A stretch of DNA of 64,000 nucleotides from Peribacillus asahii (lineage in GTDB: Bacteria; Bacillota; Bacilli; Bacillales; DSM-1321). Of this stretch, positions 10,442 to 31,560 are shown one piece after another; the first letter of the stretch is position 1; each line of letters begins with the position of its first letter. Location of the stretch: positions 1,722,001 to 1,786,000 of the forward strand of contig NZ_CP026095.1 in NCBI RefSeq assembly GCF_004006295.1. Direction: 5' to 3'. The notes under the pieces were generated by a model. That model did not search any database and was not told the DNA's origin. It was given only the letters and a program-made list of their open reading frames with translations. The position numbers and the translations under genes were made by a program.

Positions 10442-10476
10442 AAGTGAGGAATTAAAATAATCTGCTAATGTGCAGA

Positions 10477-10508
10477 AGAGGTTCTAGCTACCCTCTTTAA
10501 AAAACTAA
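10477..10508 (+). ncRNA. PreQ1-I riboswitch aptamer
   Basis: The sequence AGAGGTTCTAGCTA-CCCTCT followed by the A-rich AAAAAACTAA is the class I preQ1 aptamer: a short stem, the conserved ligand loop and the A-rich tail that forms the H-type pseudoknot. It is followed immediately by a terminator hairpin and then by queC. The expected control is that bound preQ1 favours termination and shuts off preQ1 synthesis and uptake. Confidence 0.93.
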
Positions 10509-10513
10509 GAAGA

Positions 10514-10544
10514 AACAGTACTCTGTCTTAGGGTGCTGTTTTTT
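10514..10544 (+). terminator. Riboswitch-controlled terminator
   Basis: AACAGTACTCT pairs with AGGGTGCTGTT (with G-U pairs) around a GTCTT loop and runs into TTTTT. It sits directly after the preQ1 aptamer and 24 bases before queC, in the position of an expression platform. Confidence 0.85.
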
Positions 10545-20452: not shown

Positions 20453-20616
20453 GAAAGTGATCTCCTTTGGTTTTCTATCTATTCAGTCTAGGGTAGGGAA
20501 GTACATAAGTTGTATCTTTAATGTTTTTTATATTTTATAACATATTTTCCTTTTTTATGTAAAAGGTAAAGGTAGAGAACTAGGTAATTTCATTATGAGG
20601 TAGTGGAGAAGTGACT

Positions 20617-22029
20617 ATGCCTAATATTTTATACTATGTAACTTTTATGATGATAACCATACTGTTCATTCTTTTCTTACTCATACTTATTGGCTGGCGT
20701 TGGTTTCTGAAACGAATGGTGAAGCAAATGGGGAAAATTATTTTTACTGATAGTTACCAAGAAAATATTATAGAAATGATACCAGGGTTCAGGCATATGG
20801 GCATTCAAAATGTGCTTGAAAATAGTTTGCGTGCCGAAACAGGTGATGTTCTTCATCGTCCGCTTGGTTCTTCAAAAAAGTGGCCTCATCTCGATCCGAT
20901 TACATTTATCCCTGCACAGACGTCACCGTTCCCGATTGATGGTGAAGAAGAAGTGGATGTTCAAGTAACTATTGGACCAAAAGCGAAAAAACCAATGAAA
21001 ATAAAGATTCCGCTTATGATCAGTGGAATGGCTTATGGAATTGCGCTTAGTGAAGAAGTAAGATTCGCTCTGGCCCAAGCAGCTAAAAATACAGGAACAG
21101 CGATTAATTCTGGGGAGGGCGCCGTCTTACCTGAAGAATTAGACCAGGCTGGAAAGTATATTTTGCAGTTTTCCAAAACAGAGTGGTCAAAAGAAGAAGA
21201 CCTTATTAAGCGAGCTGACATGATTGAAATTAAGTTTGGCCAAGGCGCATTAATGGGGATGGGCGGGAAAATTTCTCCAAAAAATTTAACAGGTCGTGCT
21301 CGCGAAATGATGGGGCTTAAAGAAAATGAGGAGGCTGTGATTTTTGAACATTTTTTTGAAAATCAAACATTAAAAGATATTAAGGAACTTTTGGAGGAAC
21401 TTCGGAATATAACAGGCGGTGTTCCAATTGGTGTGAAAATGGGAGCTGGCGGAAAGATTGAAGAAGACATGGATCGTTTAATCGACCTCGGTGTTGATTT
21501 TATTACGATTGATGGCGGACAAGCAGCGACACATGGTGCACCTCCCATTTTAGCCGATGACTTTGGAATCCCAACCTTGCATGCAGTAGTCCGGGCGGCT
21601 AATCATTTAGAAAAGAGGAATATGAAAGGACAAATTAGTTTAATTGTTTCAGGTGGACTTTTTACACCTGGACACTTTTTGAAAGTACTTGCACTTGGTG
21701 CTGATGCTGTTTATTTAGGATCTGTTATGTTGTTTACTGTCTCACACAATCAAATATTAAATGCACTTCCATTTGAACCGCCTACACAAGTTGTTTGGAA
21801 TCAAGGGAAATTTAAGGATAAGTTTAAAGTCGAAGACGGAGTACAAGCAGCAGAGAAATTCTTAACAGCCAGTACAGAAGAAATGAAAATGGCATTAAGA
21901 GCAATGGGGAAACGTTCTTTACAAGAGTTGTCGAAAAAAGATTTAGTGTCTTATGACGAATTGACCGCACGAATGATTGGCATTCCGTTTACATTTAAAT
22001 CTTGGGAAGACAAACAAGAAGAGAAATAA
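20617..22029 (+). CDS. FMN-binding glutamate-synthase-domain protein, copy 1 (YerD-like)
   Basis: A 470-residue protein: one N-terminal membrane segment (about residues 8-28) followed by a glutamate synthase alpha-subunit type FMN-binding barrel, with LMISGMAYGIALSEEVR, GTAINSGEGAVLPEE, IEIKFGQGA, GGVPIGVKMGAGGKIEEDMD and SGGLFTPG. This is the stand-alone, archaeal-type GltB domain found in B. subtilis YerD. The amidotransferase domain is absent, so the electron donor and substrate are unknown. ATG 20617 is used because GTGGAG lies at ideal distance; GTG 20611 is too close. Confidence 0.85.
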   Translation: MPNILYYVTFMMITILFILFLLILIGWRWFLKRMVKQMGKIIFTDSYQENIIEMIPGFRHMGIQNVLENSLRAETGDVLHRPLGSSKKWPHLDPITFIPAQTSPFPIDGEEEVDVQVTIGPKAKKPMKIKIPLMISGMAYGIALSEEVRFALAQAAKNTGTAINSGEGAVLPEELDQAGKYILQFSKTEWSKEEDLIKRADMIEIKFGQGALMGMGGKISPKNLTGRAREMMGLKENEEAVIFEHFFENQTLKDIKELLEELRNITGGVPIGVKMGAGGKIEEDMDRLIDLGVDFITIDGGQAATHGAPPILADDFGIPTLHAVVRAANHLEKRNMKGQISLIVSGGLFTPGHFLKVLALGADAVYLGSVMLFTVSHNQILNALPFEPPTQVVWNQGKFKDKFKVEDGVQAAEKFLTASTEEMKMALRAMGKRSLQELSKKDLVSYDELTARMIGIPFTFKSWEDKQEEK

Positions 22030-22098
22030 GTGTCAACCAGTTGGATTAGGGGAGCGGGCAGTAAAGCAATTTTATGTGATAGTGGAGAAGTGAATAGG

Positions 22099-23499
22099 AT
22101 GAACATTTTATACTATTTAAGTTTTGCAATGATTGCAACTTTATTTGCTCTTTCTGTATTCATACTTGTTGGCTGGCGTTGGTTAATGAAACGAATAGTT
22201 AAGCAAATGGGAAAAATTATTTTTACTGATAGTTACCAAGAAAATATTATCGAAATGATACCAGGATTCAGGCATATGGGCATTCAAAATGTGCTTGAAA
22301 ATAGCTTGCGTGCAGAAAAAGGCGACGTCCTTTATCGCCCACTTGGCGGCTCTTCAAAAAAATGGCCGCATTTTGACCAAATTACATTTATCCCTGCACA
22401 AACGACACCGTTTCCTATTGATGGTGAAGAAGAAGTAGATGTTACCGTTACCATTGGACCAAAAGCGAAAAAACCAATGAAAATAAAAATTCCGCTGATG
22501 ATCAGCGGGATGGCCTACGGGATCGCACTTAGTGAACAAGTGAGGCTTTCTTTGGCGGAAGCAGCTAAAAATGTAGGTACTGCAATTAACTCTGGTGAAG
22601 GCGGAATTTTACCCGAAGAATTAAACACGGCAGGAAAGTATATATTACAGTTTTCCAAAACAGAATGGTCAAAGGAAGAAGACGTTTTGAAGCGTGCTGA
22701 CATGATTGAAATTAAGTTGGGGCAAGGTGCTATATTCGGGATGGGAAAAAAAATCCCCCCAAAAGACTTAACCGGTCGTGCCCGTGAAGTAATGGGGCTT
22801 AAAGAAAATGAAAATGCAGTGATTTTTGAACATTTTTTTGAAGATCAAACATTAGGGGATCTTAAAGAACTTGTCGAAGAACTTCGGGTTCTAACAGGTG
22901 GAGTTCCAATTGGGGTCAAAATTGGGGCGAGTGGGAAAATTGAAGAAGATATTGATCATTTAATTGAAATGGGTGTTGATTATATTGCGATTGATGGAGG
23001 ACAAGCAGCCATGCACGAAGCACCACCCATTTTATATGATGACTTTGGGATTCCGACCTTACATGCAGTAGTTCGGGCGGCTAATCATTTAGAAAAGAGG
23101 AATATGAAAGGACAAATTAGTTTAATTGTTTCAGGTGGACTTTTGGTGCCCGGGCACTTTTTAAAAGTACTTGCACTCGGTGCTGATGCTGTATATTTAG
23201 GCTCTGCTATGTTGTTTACTGTCGCACATAATCAAATATTGAATGCCGTTCCATTTGAACCACCTACACAAGTTGTTTGGAATGAGGGAAAGTTTAAGGA
23301 ACAATTTAAGATCAAAGATGGAGTTCAAGCAGCAGAGAAATTTTTAACAGCAAGTACAGAAGAAATGAAAATGGCTTTAAGAGCGATGGGGAAACGCTCC
23401 TTAAAAGAGTTATCAAAAAAAGATTTAGTGTCTTATGATGATTTGACTGCACAAATGATTGGTATTCCATTTTCATTTAAACCTTGGGAGGAGAACTAA
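22099..23499 (+). CDS. FMN-binding glutamate-synthase-domain protein, copy 2 (YerD-like)
   Basis: A 466-residue tandem paralogue with the same membrane anchor and FMN barrel, over 80% identical by eye to copy 1. The frame opens at 22030, but ATG 22099 repeats the AGTGGAGAAGTGA ribosome binding context of copy 1 and gives MNILYYLSF, aligned with its partner. The glycine-rich loop differs (IFGMGKKIPP versus LMGMGGKISP). Tandem copies suggest a recent duplication of a single-gene unit. Confidence 0.85.
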   Translation: MNILYYLSFAMIATLFALSVFILVGWRWLMKRIVKQMGKIIFTDSYQENIIEMIPGFRHMGIQNVLENSLRAEKGDVLYRPLGGSSKKWPHFDQITFIPAQTTPFPIDGEEEVDVTVTIGPKAKKPMKIKIPLMISGMAYGIALSEQVRLSLAEAAKNVGTAINSGEGGILPEELNTAGKYILQFSKTEWSKEEDVLKRADMIEIKLGQGAIFGMGKKIPPKDLTGRAREVMGLKENENAVIFEHFFEDQTLGDLKELVEELRVLTGGVPIGVKIGASGKIEEDIDHLIEMGVDYIAIDGGQAAMHEAPPILYDDFGIPTLHAVVRAANHLEKRNMKGQISLIVSGGLLVPGHFLKVLALGADAVYLGSAMLFTVAHNQILNAVPFEPPTQVVWNEGKFKEQFKIKDGVQAAEKFLTASTEEMKMALRAMGKRSLKELSKKDLVSYDDLTAQMIGIPFSFKPWEEN

Positions 23500-23591: not shown

Positions 23592-23660
<69 letters not shown>

Positions 23661-23694: not shown

Positions 23695-24341
23695 TATGGC
23701 CTTTGTAAAGGCTACTTCGGGCAGAGGCGGAAGGAGAAGGAGTCCAAGGCATGATGCTTGTAGGGAATGTAGGCATCAATCGATTACGAGCTAATTGTTC
23801 AGATTTTAAAGGGCTTCGTACCATTCCCCAAATGATTTATTCCACACTTAACGGGCAGTAAGACCTCCACCTCAAGCTTATGAGAAAACAAAGAAGATAG
23901 GTGGGGGACAACTGCCCGTAAAGGTCCGATTGGTGAGATATAGTGAAACTTACCTTTGCGGTTTTCAAAGGTAAGCTTTCACCAATCAGGTTCGTACGGT
24001 CACTTGATTGAAGCGAAGCGAAAATCTTAGTGACCGTAGAACGTGACTAACCATCAGTGGGGATGAAGGAAAACCCCCACTGATGGAAGTTTCACTTTAT
24101 CAACCCCATGCTTTTGAAGCTACTCAGAAAGGATATTTTATCAAAGAGCGAGAGAAAGTGAAAAACGTTTAGCACGTCGGGCAATAAACGGCCAGAGAGT
24201 CTGGCCTGCTAAGTATAGTTTATGGTAAAACCTCCAGGGGATTGTCCTTCTACATGGTACAATCAACCTCTTGTAGGTCGTTATAAGCGTCATTGTTTTT
24301 ATCAGCCTGAAACATGTGAAAATATTTATAATACCTTTTAA
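23695..24341 (+). pseudogene. cwlJ: cwlJ, spore cortex hydrolase, disrupted
   Basis: CwlJ can be traced in pieces. MAFVKATS starts at 23695 after GGAGGGGG. Then, after an apparent deletion of about ten codons, AEAEGEGVQG begins at 23721 in another frame and runs through NVGINRLRANCSDFKGLRT to QMIY at 23840. The protein resumes at 24101 with QPHAFEA. A missing T near 24139 shifts frame into RARESEKRLARRAING...WPAKYSLW, and a further short deletion after 24219 shifts to KPPGDCPSTWYNQP and the normal end CENIYNTF at 24341. A 260-bp element occupies 23841-24100. CwlJ degrades cortex during Ca-DPA-triggered germination; this copy cannot be functional. Confidence 0.93.
23841..24100 (+). mobile_element. 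260-bp structured mini-element inserted in cwlJ
   Basis: Removing these bases joins ATGATTTAT to CAACCCCAT and restores the CwlJ sequence QMIYQPHAF, so the boundaries are precise. TTTAT precedes the left end and also forms the right end, as in IS200/IS605-type insertions (a 5-bp duplication reads the same). The interior holds five strong stems: 23851-23859/23911-23919 with an inner stem; GATTGGTGA 23928/23979 with inner CTTACCTTTG/CAAAGGTAAG; TACGGTCACT 23995/24029; and CCATCAGTGGGG 24051/24075. There is no ORF. The left 50 bases are repeated near 31255. Confidence 0.85.
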
Positions 24342-28458: not shown

Positions 28459-28695
28459 TTACGAAGCAGATGTTAATCCTTTTTGAATTAATTCGTACAC
28501 AGCTCCCACAAAGGAAGAAATAAGACTCTTTTGTTGATAGGCTTTGATTTGTTTAATTAGGTCAACTGGAAATTCGGTTAATTTAAGTTTGTTTTCCAAA
28601 TAATAGAACGTTCGTAATGGTGTATACTGTAAATATATCATTTGTAAACATATACTAAATATATATAGGAAGGAGGGGATAACAATGGAACACAC
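28459..28695 (-). CDS. Small ribbon-helix-helix protein encoded divergently from tnpB
   Basis: The frame ends in a compact RHH-like unit: KLKLTEFPVDLIKQIKAYQ then SFVGAVYELIQKGL, with the basic strand, two helices and spacing expected of Arc/MetJ-type DNA-binding proteins. The start is unclear: the ORF opens at 28695, but an internal ATG (about 28641) or TTG is likely, and none has a good ribosome binding site. It overlaps the tnpB promoter region on the opposite strand, so a role in repressing tnpB is conceivable but unproven. Confidence 0.45.
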   Translation of the reverse strand: MCSIVIPSFLYIFSICLQMIYLQYTPLRTFYYLENKLKLTEFPVDLIKQIKAYQQKSLISSFVGAVYELIQKGLTSAS

Positions 28696-30142
28696 GCCAT
28701 ATAAAACGTATCAAATATGGATTAAAAAAGGACATCGTTTATTTTCGTATTTTCAAATGATGTGTGAACATGCAAAAAACTTATATAATACGAGTAATTT
28801 TTACTATCGGCAAGTATATACCGCTCTTACCAGCAATAAACCTCTTCATCCTTTACAAGAAGAAGTGTTACAGGTTATTCATACACATATAGGTCGAATG
28901 AATGATATTCAACTTCAAGCTTACCAAAAGCGAGTAGCGAAAGAACAAATGAAACCAGTGGACGAACGAAAAGAAGTGAAAGCGAATTTGTTTACGAAAC
29001 CGACAAACGAACATCCGTATATCAACTATGCATTTTTAGATTGTTTATTTAAGGTTAGTAAACAATCCGATTATCTTTCATTACCGATTCAAAGTAGTCA
29101 ACACGTCATGAAGACTATGTTTCAAAACTGGAAATCGTTTTTTGCTTCTTTATCCGATTATCGAAAAAATCCTCATAAATATAAAGGGAAACCACGTATT
29201 CCTAATTACAGTTCCTCTAAAGTGAAAGAAGTATTTTTCACTAATCAAGATTGTGTGATAAAGAATGACCGTTATTTAAAATTTCCTAAAACAAAAGAAC
29301 AACTCAATATTGGAAAAATGGCTAGAATAAAAGGGAAACTTAAACAAGTTCGTGTCCTTCCCAAGTACGGTCAGTTTGTGGTAGAAGTTGTATGGGAGTG
29401 TTCTTTGCCTGAACCAACAGAAAAAGAGCCAACTCATTTCATGGGAATTGATCTAGGAATTGATAATCTAGCGACTGTAGTGGCTAATACAGGAATGAAG
29501 CCAGTTTTAATTAAAGGAAAACGTATCAAATCCATGAATCAGTATTACAACAAGCAAAAAGCCTATTATACGAGTATCCTTTGTCACGGAAAGTCATCCA
29601 ATCAAGGGCAACATACGTCAAAAAAATTAGAACGATTGCATTTGAACCGTCACAAGCAAATCAAAGATTTATTCCACAAAGCGAGTCGTCATATTGTGAA
29701 TCTTGCCTTACAAGAACAGGTAGACATAATTGTGATTGGACAGAACAAACAGTGGAAACAAGAATCGAATATAGGAAAACGAAATAATCAACAGTTTTGT
29801 TTTATTCCACATCGTTTATTGATTCAAATGATTGAATATAAAGCGATAGAGCATGGGATTCAAGTAGTTATTACGGAAGAATCCTATACATCTAAGGCTA
29901 GTTTTTTAGACCTTGATTTTCTGCCCACTTATGAGAAAGAAAAGACCTACTCATTCAGTGGAAAACGAATCAAACGTGGGCTATATAAGAGTGCAAAAGG
30001 AATTTTGATGAATGCTGATGTAAATGGGGCTTATAACATGATTCGAAAAGTAGTTCCAAATGCGTTTGCAAATGGAATAGAGGGGTTGAACGGTAGCCAA
30101 TCCGTTAATGTGTCAACTCCCCTTGTGTTAAGCGTTCAGTAA
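28685..30142 (+). CDS. tnpB: TnpB-family nuclease with altered RuvC-II motif
   Basis: A 485-residue TnpB relative. RuvC-I is intact (Asp256 in GIDLGIDNLA) and so is RuvC-III (Asp445 in NADVNGAY). At the usual RuvC-II Glu position the sequence reads VIGQNKQW with no Glu. About 45 residues on, where standard TnpB has PTRTSQRC, this protein has EESYTSKAS (Glu398, Glu399), and the zinc-ribbon Cys pairs are missing. GGAAGGAGGGG precedes ATG 28685. This fits the TnpB group described as having a rearranged catalytic site (recalled, not checked). It is about half identical to the copy at 48748. Confidence 0.88.
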   Translation: MEHTPYKTYQIWIKKGHRLFSYFQMMCEHAKNLYNTSNFYYRQVYTALTSNKPLHPLQEEVLQVIHTHIGRMNDIQLQAYQKRVAKEQMKPVDERKEVKANLFTKPTNEHPYINYAFLDCLFKVSKQSDYLSLPIQSSQHVMKTMFQNWKSFFASLSDYRKNPHKYKGKPRIPNYSSSKVKEVFFTNQDCVIKNDRYLKFPKTKEQLNIGKMARIKGKLKQVRVLPKYGQFVVEVVWECSLPEPTEKEPTHFMGIDLGIDNLATVVANTGMKPVLIKGKRIKSMNQYYNKQKAYYTSILCHGKSSNQGQHTSKKLERLHLNRHKQIKDLFHKASRHIVNLALQEQVDIIVIGQNKQWKQESNIGKRNNQQFCFIPHRLLIQMIEYKAIEHGIQVVITEESYTSKASFLDLDFLPTYEKEKTYSFSGKRIKRGLYKSAKGILMNADVNGAYNMIRKVVPNAFANGIEGLNGSQSVNVSTPLVLSVQ

Positions 30143-30295
30143 GTAGGTTCGACACACAAGAAACCCCCACTTCAAGGAAGCTCGGTAGAGTGAGTAAGTG
30201 GGGGAGTATTCATAAGGTGAATGCTCTCAAATGTTCTTTACAACTTAATTTTGAAGGAGTAATATTACTTTCATGTAAAACCATATTTCTTTATT

Positions 30296-30440
30296 CGCTG
30301 AATCCTTTATGGAACGGGGGAACCAATTTTGTGGCGGTGTTTTCGTCGCTTGGGGTGAATCCTTTATGAAGAAGGTAGGGCTACTCTCATGGTCCGAATC
30401 CGACAGCTAACTCCGGAAGCGTGAAGAGAGAGGAAGTGAT
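30296..30440 (+). ncRNA. c-di-AMP riboswitch (ydaO/yuaA motif)
   Basis: The conserved blocks occur in order: CGCTGAATCCTT, GGAACGGGGGAACC, GGGGTGAATCC, GTAGGGCTACTCTC, GTCCGAATCCGACAGCTAA and CCGGAAGCG. This is the ydaO/yuaA architecture that senses cyclic di-AMP and turns genes off at high ligand. It is followed by a terminator and ktrA, a classical target. Confidence 0.93.
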
Positions 30441-31196: not shown

Positions 31197-31254
31197 CAAG
31201 CACTATACATTTGAAATGAATGCTTACTGAAACGCTTGTATTAAACCGTTTTAT

Positions 31255-31560
31255 CCCACACCTAATGGGAAGTAAGCTCCCCACCTCAAGCTTGCGAGAA
31301 GAAAAAAGAGAGATGAGGGAATTCCCTCATTAATAGCTGCGGTTCTTAGCTCCTCGAGGTCATAAGCGGTCATGCTCTATGGCAAACTGCGTCATGCTGC
31401 CTTTCATCTGCTTGTCGGGGCTGAACAGTCGTCTTTCAGCTTTTGGCATAGTAGACCTGTCTATAGGAATAATTGCTGACTTCTCTATTGTTGAAAAATG
31501 AATCATTGTAGGAGTTAGGGGATTTGGTAAAGTAGGTCCGCTTACCCTCGTCTATTTGCT
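31255..31560 (+). mobile_element. Second mini-element, related to the one in cwlJ (right end uncertain)
   Basis: Preceded by TTTTAT, the sequence CCCACACCTAATGGGAAGTA aligns with TCCACACTTAACGGGCAGTA of the cwlJ insert, and the likeness continues through CACCTCAAGCTT and GAGAA. An outer stem joins AATGGGAA (31264) to TTCCCTCATT (31322-31331). Beyond about 31335 the sequence no longer matches the cwlJ element, though it has RNA-like short stems (GCTGAACAGTCGTCTTTCAGC). The right end at 31560 is a guess. Confidence 0.6.

Follow-up and report, generated by a model that had tools for sequence, protein, structure and literature searches.

A modular hairpin repeat inserted in a broken cwlJ gene of Peribacillus asahii and its occurrence across the Bacillales

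A broken cwlJ gene of Peribacillus asahii is interrupted by a 260-nt insert, one copy of an element made of a fixed scaffold of two end stems with plugged-in hairpin cassettes. The copy lies in a window of 64,000 nt (the whole stretch of DNA analysed here), and we consider it probable that the insert is a non-autonomous, modular and structured mobile repeat of the Bacillales, whose ends are recombined in trans by an enzyme that works like the Y1 transposases of IS200/IS605.

The interrupted cwlJ gene and its insert

When translated in separate pieces, the cwlJ gene of the window (23695-24341, + strand) yields five CwlJ fragments in three frames (Table 1), as had been read by the initial annotation. 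Its longer fragments share 54-85% identity with intact CwlJ genes of relatives, and the fragment RAEAEGEG..QMIY is 59-85% identical to their intact cwlJ (tblastn). Sixteen cwlJ loci were compared, 12 of which were recognised by motif search, the other four being two relatives with another CwlJ type and two paralogues from the P. asahii genome itself. In all 12 recognised relatives the gene is intact, the insert is absent at the same point and the protein is continuous there (motif search); two of them read exactly QMIYQPHAF, the stretch that removal of the insert had been said to restore. The DNA of the relatives at the insertion point is ATTTATCA in 9 of 12. The insert position corresponds to a TTTAT within the Ile-Tyr codons of cwlJ, and because 10 of the 12 relatives carry TTTATCA where the window has TTTAT, the insert and then CA, the insertion was precise and its target was the TTTAT of the coding sequence. 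The TTTAT described earlier to the left of the insert and the one at its right end are both present. A 260-nt copy has entered a cwlJ paralogue that also has frameshifts, which may have arisen before or after it.

The fold of the insert is beyond chance both as RNA (-113.2 kcal/mol, z -10.9) and as DNA (-64.1 kcal/mol, z -10.3), 0 of 200 shuffles being as stable in either case, which agrees with the initial picture of an insert with long stems and no ORF. No inverted repeat of at least 10 nt joins the two ends of the window copy; its right end pairs with an inner stretch (23937-23951/24087-24101). By-eye comparison with copies of 157-158 nt (L060, L080, L067, L073) revealed that the 157-nt form has only TCAAC where the insert has its middle cassette. 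In Rfam, the insert had no match at gathering score, and sub-threshold matches were at chance level only.

Table 1. Coordinates of the broken cwlJ gene, the insert and a second copy of the repeat in the window
Feature	Position	Strand	Description
cwlJ 5' part	23696..23840	+	MAFVKATS in one frame, RAEAEGEG..RTIPQMIY in the next
Left TTTAT	23836..23840	+	Target as in intact cwlJ of relatives; TTTATCA in 10 of 12
Inserted modular hairpin element	23841..24100	+	260 nt, without ORF of at least 50 aa
Stem A of insert	23851..23919	+	Outer arms 23851-23859/23911-23919, inner arms 23864-23872/23899-23907; from fold and covariation
Middle cassette, two hairpins	23935..24047	+	Between GATTGGT and TAACC; from by-eye comparison
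Stem C of insert	24051..24086	+	CCATCAGTGGGG / CCCCACTGATGG; from fold and covariation
Right TTTAT	24096..24100	+	Closes the element (its final five bases); own-genome copies with it: 17 of 17 (query contained TTTAT)
cwlJ 3' part	24101..24341	+	Three successive frames: QPHAFEATQKGYF, YQRARES..AKYSLW, KPPGDC..IYNTF-stop
Second window copy, decayed	31250..31450 (approximate end)	+	Left end, stem A and stem-A-foot cassette; no recognisable right end

Loss of this cwlJ had been expected to weaken the cortex lysis triggered by Ca-DPA. The P. asahii genome holds two near-identical intact CwlJ-type genes (146 and 166 aa, counted from the first start codon), whose names derive from similarity to the fragments (51-80%) because NCBIfam gives only a sub-cut-off SleB match. 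It also holds GerQ and a SleB that scores above its NCBIfam cut-off and has a YpeB-like gene, named by eye, beside it. The search for a second intact cwlJ or sleB was therefore positive, and since all these genes remain, the forecast for germination is weakened: judging from the gene content, a Ca-DPA defect is possible, but it is likely buffered. No cwlJ adjoining gerQ was found in the P. asahii genome, and a cwlJ lies beside a gerQ-like gene in genomes G009 and G010. At G000:C1:4654640 (L406), compared with L312 and L313, gerQ is without a cwlJ neighbour, and the gap has two AAAAGCGGAAACGGCTCGACCAG repeat copies.

A family of modular repeats in the Bacillales

The insert is one of many copies in the P. 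asahii genome, and not the unique sequence that would have spoken against the initial annotation. A genome-wide pattern scan (up to 3 mismatches) revealed 74 right ends and 53 left ends, part of them decayed or unpaired, and the reversed-pattern controls for right and left ends gave 0 each. Seventeen further own-genome copies, aligned with their flanks, have the same ends, and 14 of them have TTTAT immediately to the left, the remaining three comprising one with ATTAT, one with TTCAT and one without; this count is unbiased, the query having no left TTTAT, in contrast to the 17 of 17 for the right-end TTTAT, which is biased by a query that contained it. Relative to the replichores the right ends are oriented 37:37, without the bias to the lagging-strand template that was sought as a trait of IS200/IS605 derivatives, if the contig start is taken as the origin. 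The chromosome has no right ends at 1.90-2.77 Mb, and 14 of the 74 lie at 1.36-1.50 Mb. The second window copy is 80% identical to another copy (L030) over 31257-31434 (blastn, E 1.7e-41).

Recurring element sizes are about 55, 110, 157, 220, 265, 335 and 385 nt. The initial label of a 260-bp mini-element was correct in that the 260-nt copy is real, but it is too narrow, 260 nt being one of several recurring sizes. The lengths of 35 own-genome copies fall at 54-64, 108-110, 147-158, 227-269, 336-345 and 374-389 nt. These clusters recur among 175 distinct copies, collected up to 420 nt by end patterns that include TTTAT, with extra clusters near 105-135 and 200-230 nt; 39 copies of this set are shorter than 70 nt, 17 measure 100-139 nt, 43 measure 140-169 nt and 76 are longer. 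TTTAT occurs on the left in 152 and on the right in 167 of the 175, frequencies that are biased because the end patterns contained TTTAT.

The common core of 157 nt consists of TTTAT, the left end, stem A, GATTGGTTCAACTAACC, stem C, AAGTTTCAC and TTTAT, and its stretches in the alignment of core copies (A1) include GATTGGTTCAACTAAC, the foot of stem C and GAAGTTTCAC-TTTAT. In the longer forms, three sites of this scaffold are occupied by hairpin cassettes (by eye). The first is the foot of stem A, which in the P. asahii genome receives a ~115-nt cassette that may itself contain an extra piece of ~40-50 nt. The second lies between GATTGGT and TAACC, as in the window copy, and is filled by other cassettes in other species, including five tandem repeats of one cassette in a copy of 486 nt (L214). 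The third is the loop of stem C. An apparent group II intron remnant was seen by eye inside a copy of 951 nt (L264), a copy of 492 nt (L208) has no ORF of 100 aa, and inspection by eye of the long or unpaired copies that were opened revealed no transposase-like or recombinase-like ORF. Among the shortest copies, 17 of 39 show a plain ACCCCC(C)AC junction, where the left end is joined to the right end at the repeat ACCCCCAC, and the other 22 are without a plain slippage junction. In 8 of the 17 copies of 100-139 nt, the GTGGGGGA-like arm of stem A is joined to the loop of stem C (by eye); other junctions occur in the remaining copies of these two classes. The 55-nt form has lost the right-end stem.

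The two end stems are supported by covariation. Alignment A1 comprises 40 of the 43 copies of 140-172 nt (L101, L193 and L205 were left out), with one to four bases removed from the left of eight of them. RNAalifold on these 40 core copies predicted 34 pairs, 14 of which have changes on both sides. In the three main helices, pairing holds in 97.4% of cells and double changes occur at 13 of the 27 pairs, a count that profits from a favourable bias in that the helices come from the consensus of the alignment itself. By comparison, shuffling gave a mean of 3.6 double changes, and 0 of 500 shuffles reached 13, a test inflated by kinship among the copies; sliding the partner by 1-3 columns gave 3-5. 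Covarying columns are located at 17-25/85-93 and 33-39/72-78 in stem A and at 118-128/151-161 in stem C, with readable double changes such as the replacement of C-G by G-C that L224 and L280 show in stem C. The ends and the core are better conserved among aligned copies than the loop of stem A. The structure is kept by selection or is required for spread.

A search with a core copy gave matches in 93 of 299 genomes from the window's order, representing 51 of 116 genera (E ≤0.001). Because the DNA searches scored few candidates per genome (up to 18 in one search and 2 in the order-wide search), the copy numbers that they provide are lower bounds. Among 80 listed of at least 120 stretches, the right end was found in Peribacillus, Cytobacillus, Niallia, Neobacillus, Metabacillus and Priestia, and the matches listed also included Gottfriedia, Ectobacillus, Terrilactibacillus, Heyndrickxia and Rummeliibacillus. 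Outside this group, the matches listed comprised a Modestobacter contig and a Clostridia MAG, both of which may be contamination. Virus and phage records carry the repeat rarely: three pattern scans of virus records returned 1, 18 and 10 stretches, with one true copy in each (by eye), those of the first two scans being on the same contig, and phage records gave two weak partial matches only. Plasmid records yielded six matches at E up to 10, none of them from the B. cereus group; a 16S pattern likewise picked out no member of that group among 397 genomes. The smaller contig of the P. asahii assembly has DNA 73-75% identical to plasmids of P. asahii and Priestia. On the Klebsiella grimontii plasmid CP079755.1 (221561-221623), a 66-nt piece of the core was matched with 86% identity, corresponding to a 42% partial match. 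The repeat may account for many of the unnamed intergenic hairpins of Bacillales genomes.

By description, the nearest described kind is bcr1 of the Bacillus cereus group. In the available text of three reports (PMC6542083, PMC2267715, PMC3446304), bcr1 (group A BCR) is an ORF-free, MITE-like repeat, structured and interspersed, that measures 147-167 bp, contains a TTTAT motif, reaches up to 130 copies per genome and is described as restricted to the B. cereus group. The repeat, as far as these descriptions extend, resembles bcr1 in its TTTAT ends, absence of an ORF, high copy number and conserved fold, and differs from it in the number of genera of the order that have its core (51 of 116) and in the several sizes produced by plugged-in cassettes. 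Bcr1 is also listed, in the accessible portion of PMC3733652, among MITEs with terminal inverted repeats, in contrast to the window copy, which has none of at least 10 nt. Two stem-loop families given in the available part of PMC2267715, Bhal-1 of B. halodurans (74 bp, 36 copies) and Bant-1 of B. anthracis (72 bp), are known to us by description and could be relatives of the repeat. No account of this hairpin family outside the B. cereus group was found in the literature covered, a weak negative since subscription papers lay mostly outside that search.

A modular design is also found in the streptococcal BOX elements (boxA, boxB repeats, boxC), which, in the text available from PMC3049150, are composite and non-autonomous, with fixed end modules and variable internal modules. 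Judged by the same description, BOX is tied to ISSpn2-like terminal inverted repeats, whereas the repeat has a fixed TTTAT.

A putative mode of movement and its alternatives

Elements of the IS200/IS605 family insert 3' of a T-rich pentanucleotide, without target duplication and without terminal inverted repeats, and TTTAT is among the targets of group A IStrons, according to the accessible text of PMC4227781. Within the limits of this source, the repeat resembles IS200/IS605 elements, their derivatives and group A IStrons in its one-sided TTTAT target, its lack of terminal inverted repeats and its subterminal palindromes (PMC4227781). It is inserted 3' of a fixed short target, with no variable target duplication, a layout that taken alone also fits a fixed 5-bp duplication. 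Subterminal stems without terminal inverted repeats are present, with the exception of the 55-nt form, from which the right stem is missing; if such forms move alone, the stem model is wrong. The foot of the left stem reads TAAC in 36 and TAAG in 4 of the 40 aligned copies, and the right-stem foot reads CTAACC in 38 of 40; at both end stems, the last one or two bases of TAA(C) lie inside the stem. In IS200/IS605 elements, the guide sequences sit at the 5' foot of the end stems, as TAA(C) does here.

Tandem arrays provide a further view of the junctions. Four copies in L360 are joined by three junctions, each with one shared TTTAT; L361 has three copies, with TTTAT at one junction and CTTAT at the other; L362 and L363 each comprise two copies and a single shared-TTTAT junction; and L364 has three shared-TTTAT junctions. 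Tandems sharing TTTAT also occur in L219 and L295, and in L248 a left end follows a right end. A single TTTAT shared between neighbours is what would be expected if the right end of one copy serves as the target of the next.

We infer an IS200/IS605-like working from the anatomy of the repeat, because of the nearly fixed one-sided target, the single TTTAT in the intact gene, the tandems with a shared TTTAT and the TAA(C) feet. The end stems, as single-stranded DNA, would present both ends to a recombinase acting in trans, which would cut at the right-end TTTAT and at a TTTAT in the target, like the Y1 transposases of IS200/IS605, with the TAA(C) at the 5' foot of both end stems as the equivalent of a guide sequence. 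After insertion, slippage between short repeats made by the stems (ACCCCCAC; GTGGGGGA) would trim some copies to the 55- and 110-nt forms.

No copy was seen to contain tnpA or tnpB, unlike IS200/IS605, and none of the 65 Y1 loci examined (58 + 7, of 111 matches, some loci being cut by contig ends) is bounded by the ends of the repeat. Three of the 58 (L382, L389, L391) hold a stray copy or an end of it. Two genomes (G079, G068) have no PF01797 match despite 134 and 70 first-look candidates, which are unverified copies, two having been scored in each. The initial assignment to an IS200/IS605-type derivative can thus be retained for the one-sided TTTAT, the absence of an inverted repeat joining the ends, the subterminal stems and the TTTAT-sharing tandems, but the derivation itself gains no support from the 65 Y1 loci, the two genomes without a Y1 match or the even orientation of the right ends.

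A fixed target duplication of 5 bp is an equally good reading of the TTTAT at both ends. An ordinary DDE-transposon MITE, in which TTTAT would be the near-fixed target-site duplication of a choosy transposase, would have exactly this layout, with TTTAT on both sides of the insert and once in the intact gene, and bcr1 is grouped with MITEs in the available text of PMC3733652 and PMC3446304. Such an origin is nevertheless unlikely, considering that the flank is nearly fixed, that tandem copies have a single TTTAT in common and that the window copy has no end-joining inverted repeat of at least 10 nt, MITEs being defined in the accessible part of PMC3733652 by terminal inverted repeats of 15-30 bp. 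Site-specific recombination at TTTAT by a tyrosine recombinase (Xer- or integron-like) would have tandem arrays and cassette swaps as its products, which suits the arrays with a shared TTTAT and the modular cassettes. Against it, most examined copies occur singly and scattered, the long or unpaired copies inspected by eye show no recombinase-like ORF, and a core of 5 bases is very short for site-specific recombinases, which makes this route quite improbable.

The strong covariation could also be that of a functional RNA or terminator-like element, duplicated and retained mainly for the structure of transcripts, and BCR copies were present in transcripts of two B. cereus strains (84/165 and 62/155; PMC3446304, available text). 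Yet the absence of an Rfam match at gathering score (chance level below it), the highly variable size and cassettes, the numerous decayed copies, the occurrence of one copy within a coding gene and the better preservation of ends and core than of the stem A loop render this view very doubtful. As for faults of assembly or sequencing in the broken frames or the insert, the frameshifts are known from the assembly alone, but the insert fits the family cleanly and sits at a clean TTTAT, the assembly consists of 2 contigs, with completeness at 100 and contamination at 2.41, and the cwlJ fragments match intact relatives, so that an artefact is scarcely credible.

The recombination of the ends in trans, IS200/IS605 fashion, is the reading retained here. 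A broader and more tentative proposal, which we hold as possible but doubtful, is that of one family of mobile elements, protein-free and of single-strand type, that would be older than many genera of the Bacillales, with constant motifs (TTTAT as target, TTTAT at the right end and TAAC as guide), a scaffold trading cassettes at three sites and an enzyme supplied in trans; bcr1 would be its branch in the B. cereus group. In the literature available to us in part, the movement of bcr1-type and other hairpin repeats is only proposed. With its many copies, a pair of occupied and intact genes, tandem junctions and a series of lengths, the family offers a test system for its target, its ends and its smallest mobile form.

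Candidate partners and neighbouring elements

Several candidate partners were considered and rejected. For an autonomous partner in the P. asahii genome, 13 loci whose left end has no right end close by were opened, and no transposase was seen by eye. A left/right pair spanning 1197 nt (G000 3539154-3540350), considered as a long element, proved to be two separate copies around unrelated genes. Neither the IS605-type tnpA/tnpB locus of the P. asahii genome nor its RAYT-like gene carries the ends of the repeat, and the IS605 copies of genome G192 have other ends, one of them (L399) with a stray GTTTCACTTTAT beside it and no left end.

REPs, which are small and palindromic, are presumed to owe their mobility to Y1 tyrosine transposases (PMC3733652, text available in part). 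The presence of a RAYT-like gene (recognised by length and setting) in the P. asahii genome recalls the REP/RAYT pairing, but this gene is flanked by GTCACTGTGAC palindromes and not by the repeat, and the GTAG/CGTC tags of REPs are not the ends of the repeat. The RAYT-like gene and GTCACTGTGAC palindromes at G000:C1:4469266 (L040) constitute a separate REP-like system.

The P. asahii genome has 18 TnpB-type (PF07282) matches, one being the window gene at 28685-30142, versus only two Y1 matches, so that it mostly contains TnpB without TnpA. At these 18 TnpB loci, the sole strong match to the repeat comes from the second window copy, which lies 1.1 kb downstream from the tnpB gene in the window. 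A hairpin found by eye immediately 3' of the stop codon of this tnpB may be part of a guide RNA.

Upstream of the start of the broken cwlJ, a perfect run of 69 nt (23592-23660) comprises 23 TAT triplets and is possibly a phase-variable promoter tract. It is preceded by two tandem paralogous genes (20611-23499), the second of which gave sub-cut-off matches to the glutamate synthase large subunit. Elsewhere in the window, Rfam matches at gathering score identified two riboswitches, c-di-AMP at 30286-30437 and PreQ1 at 10472-10514.
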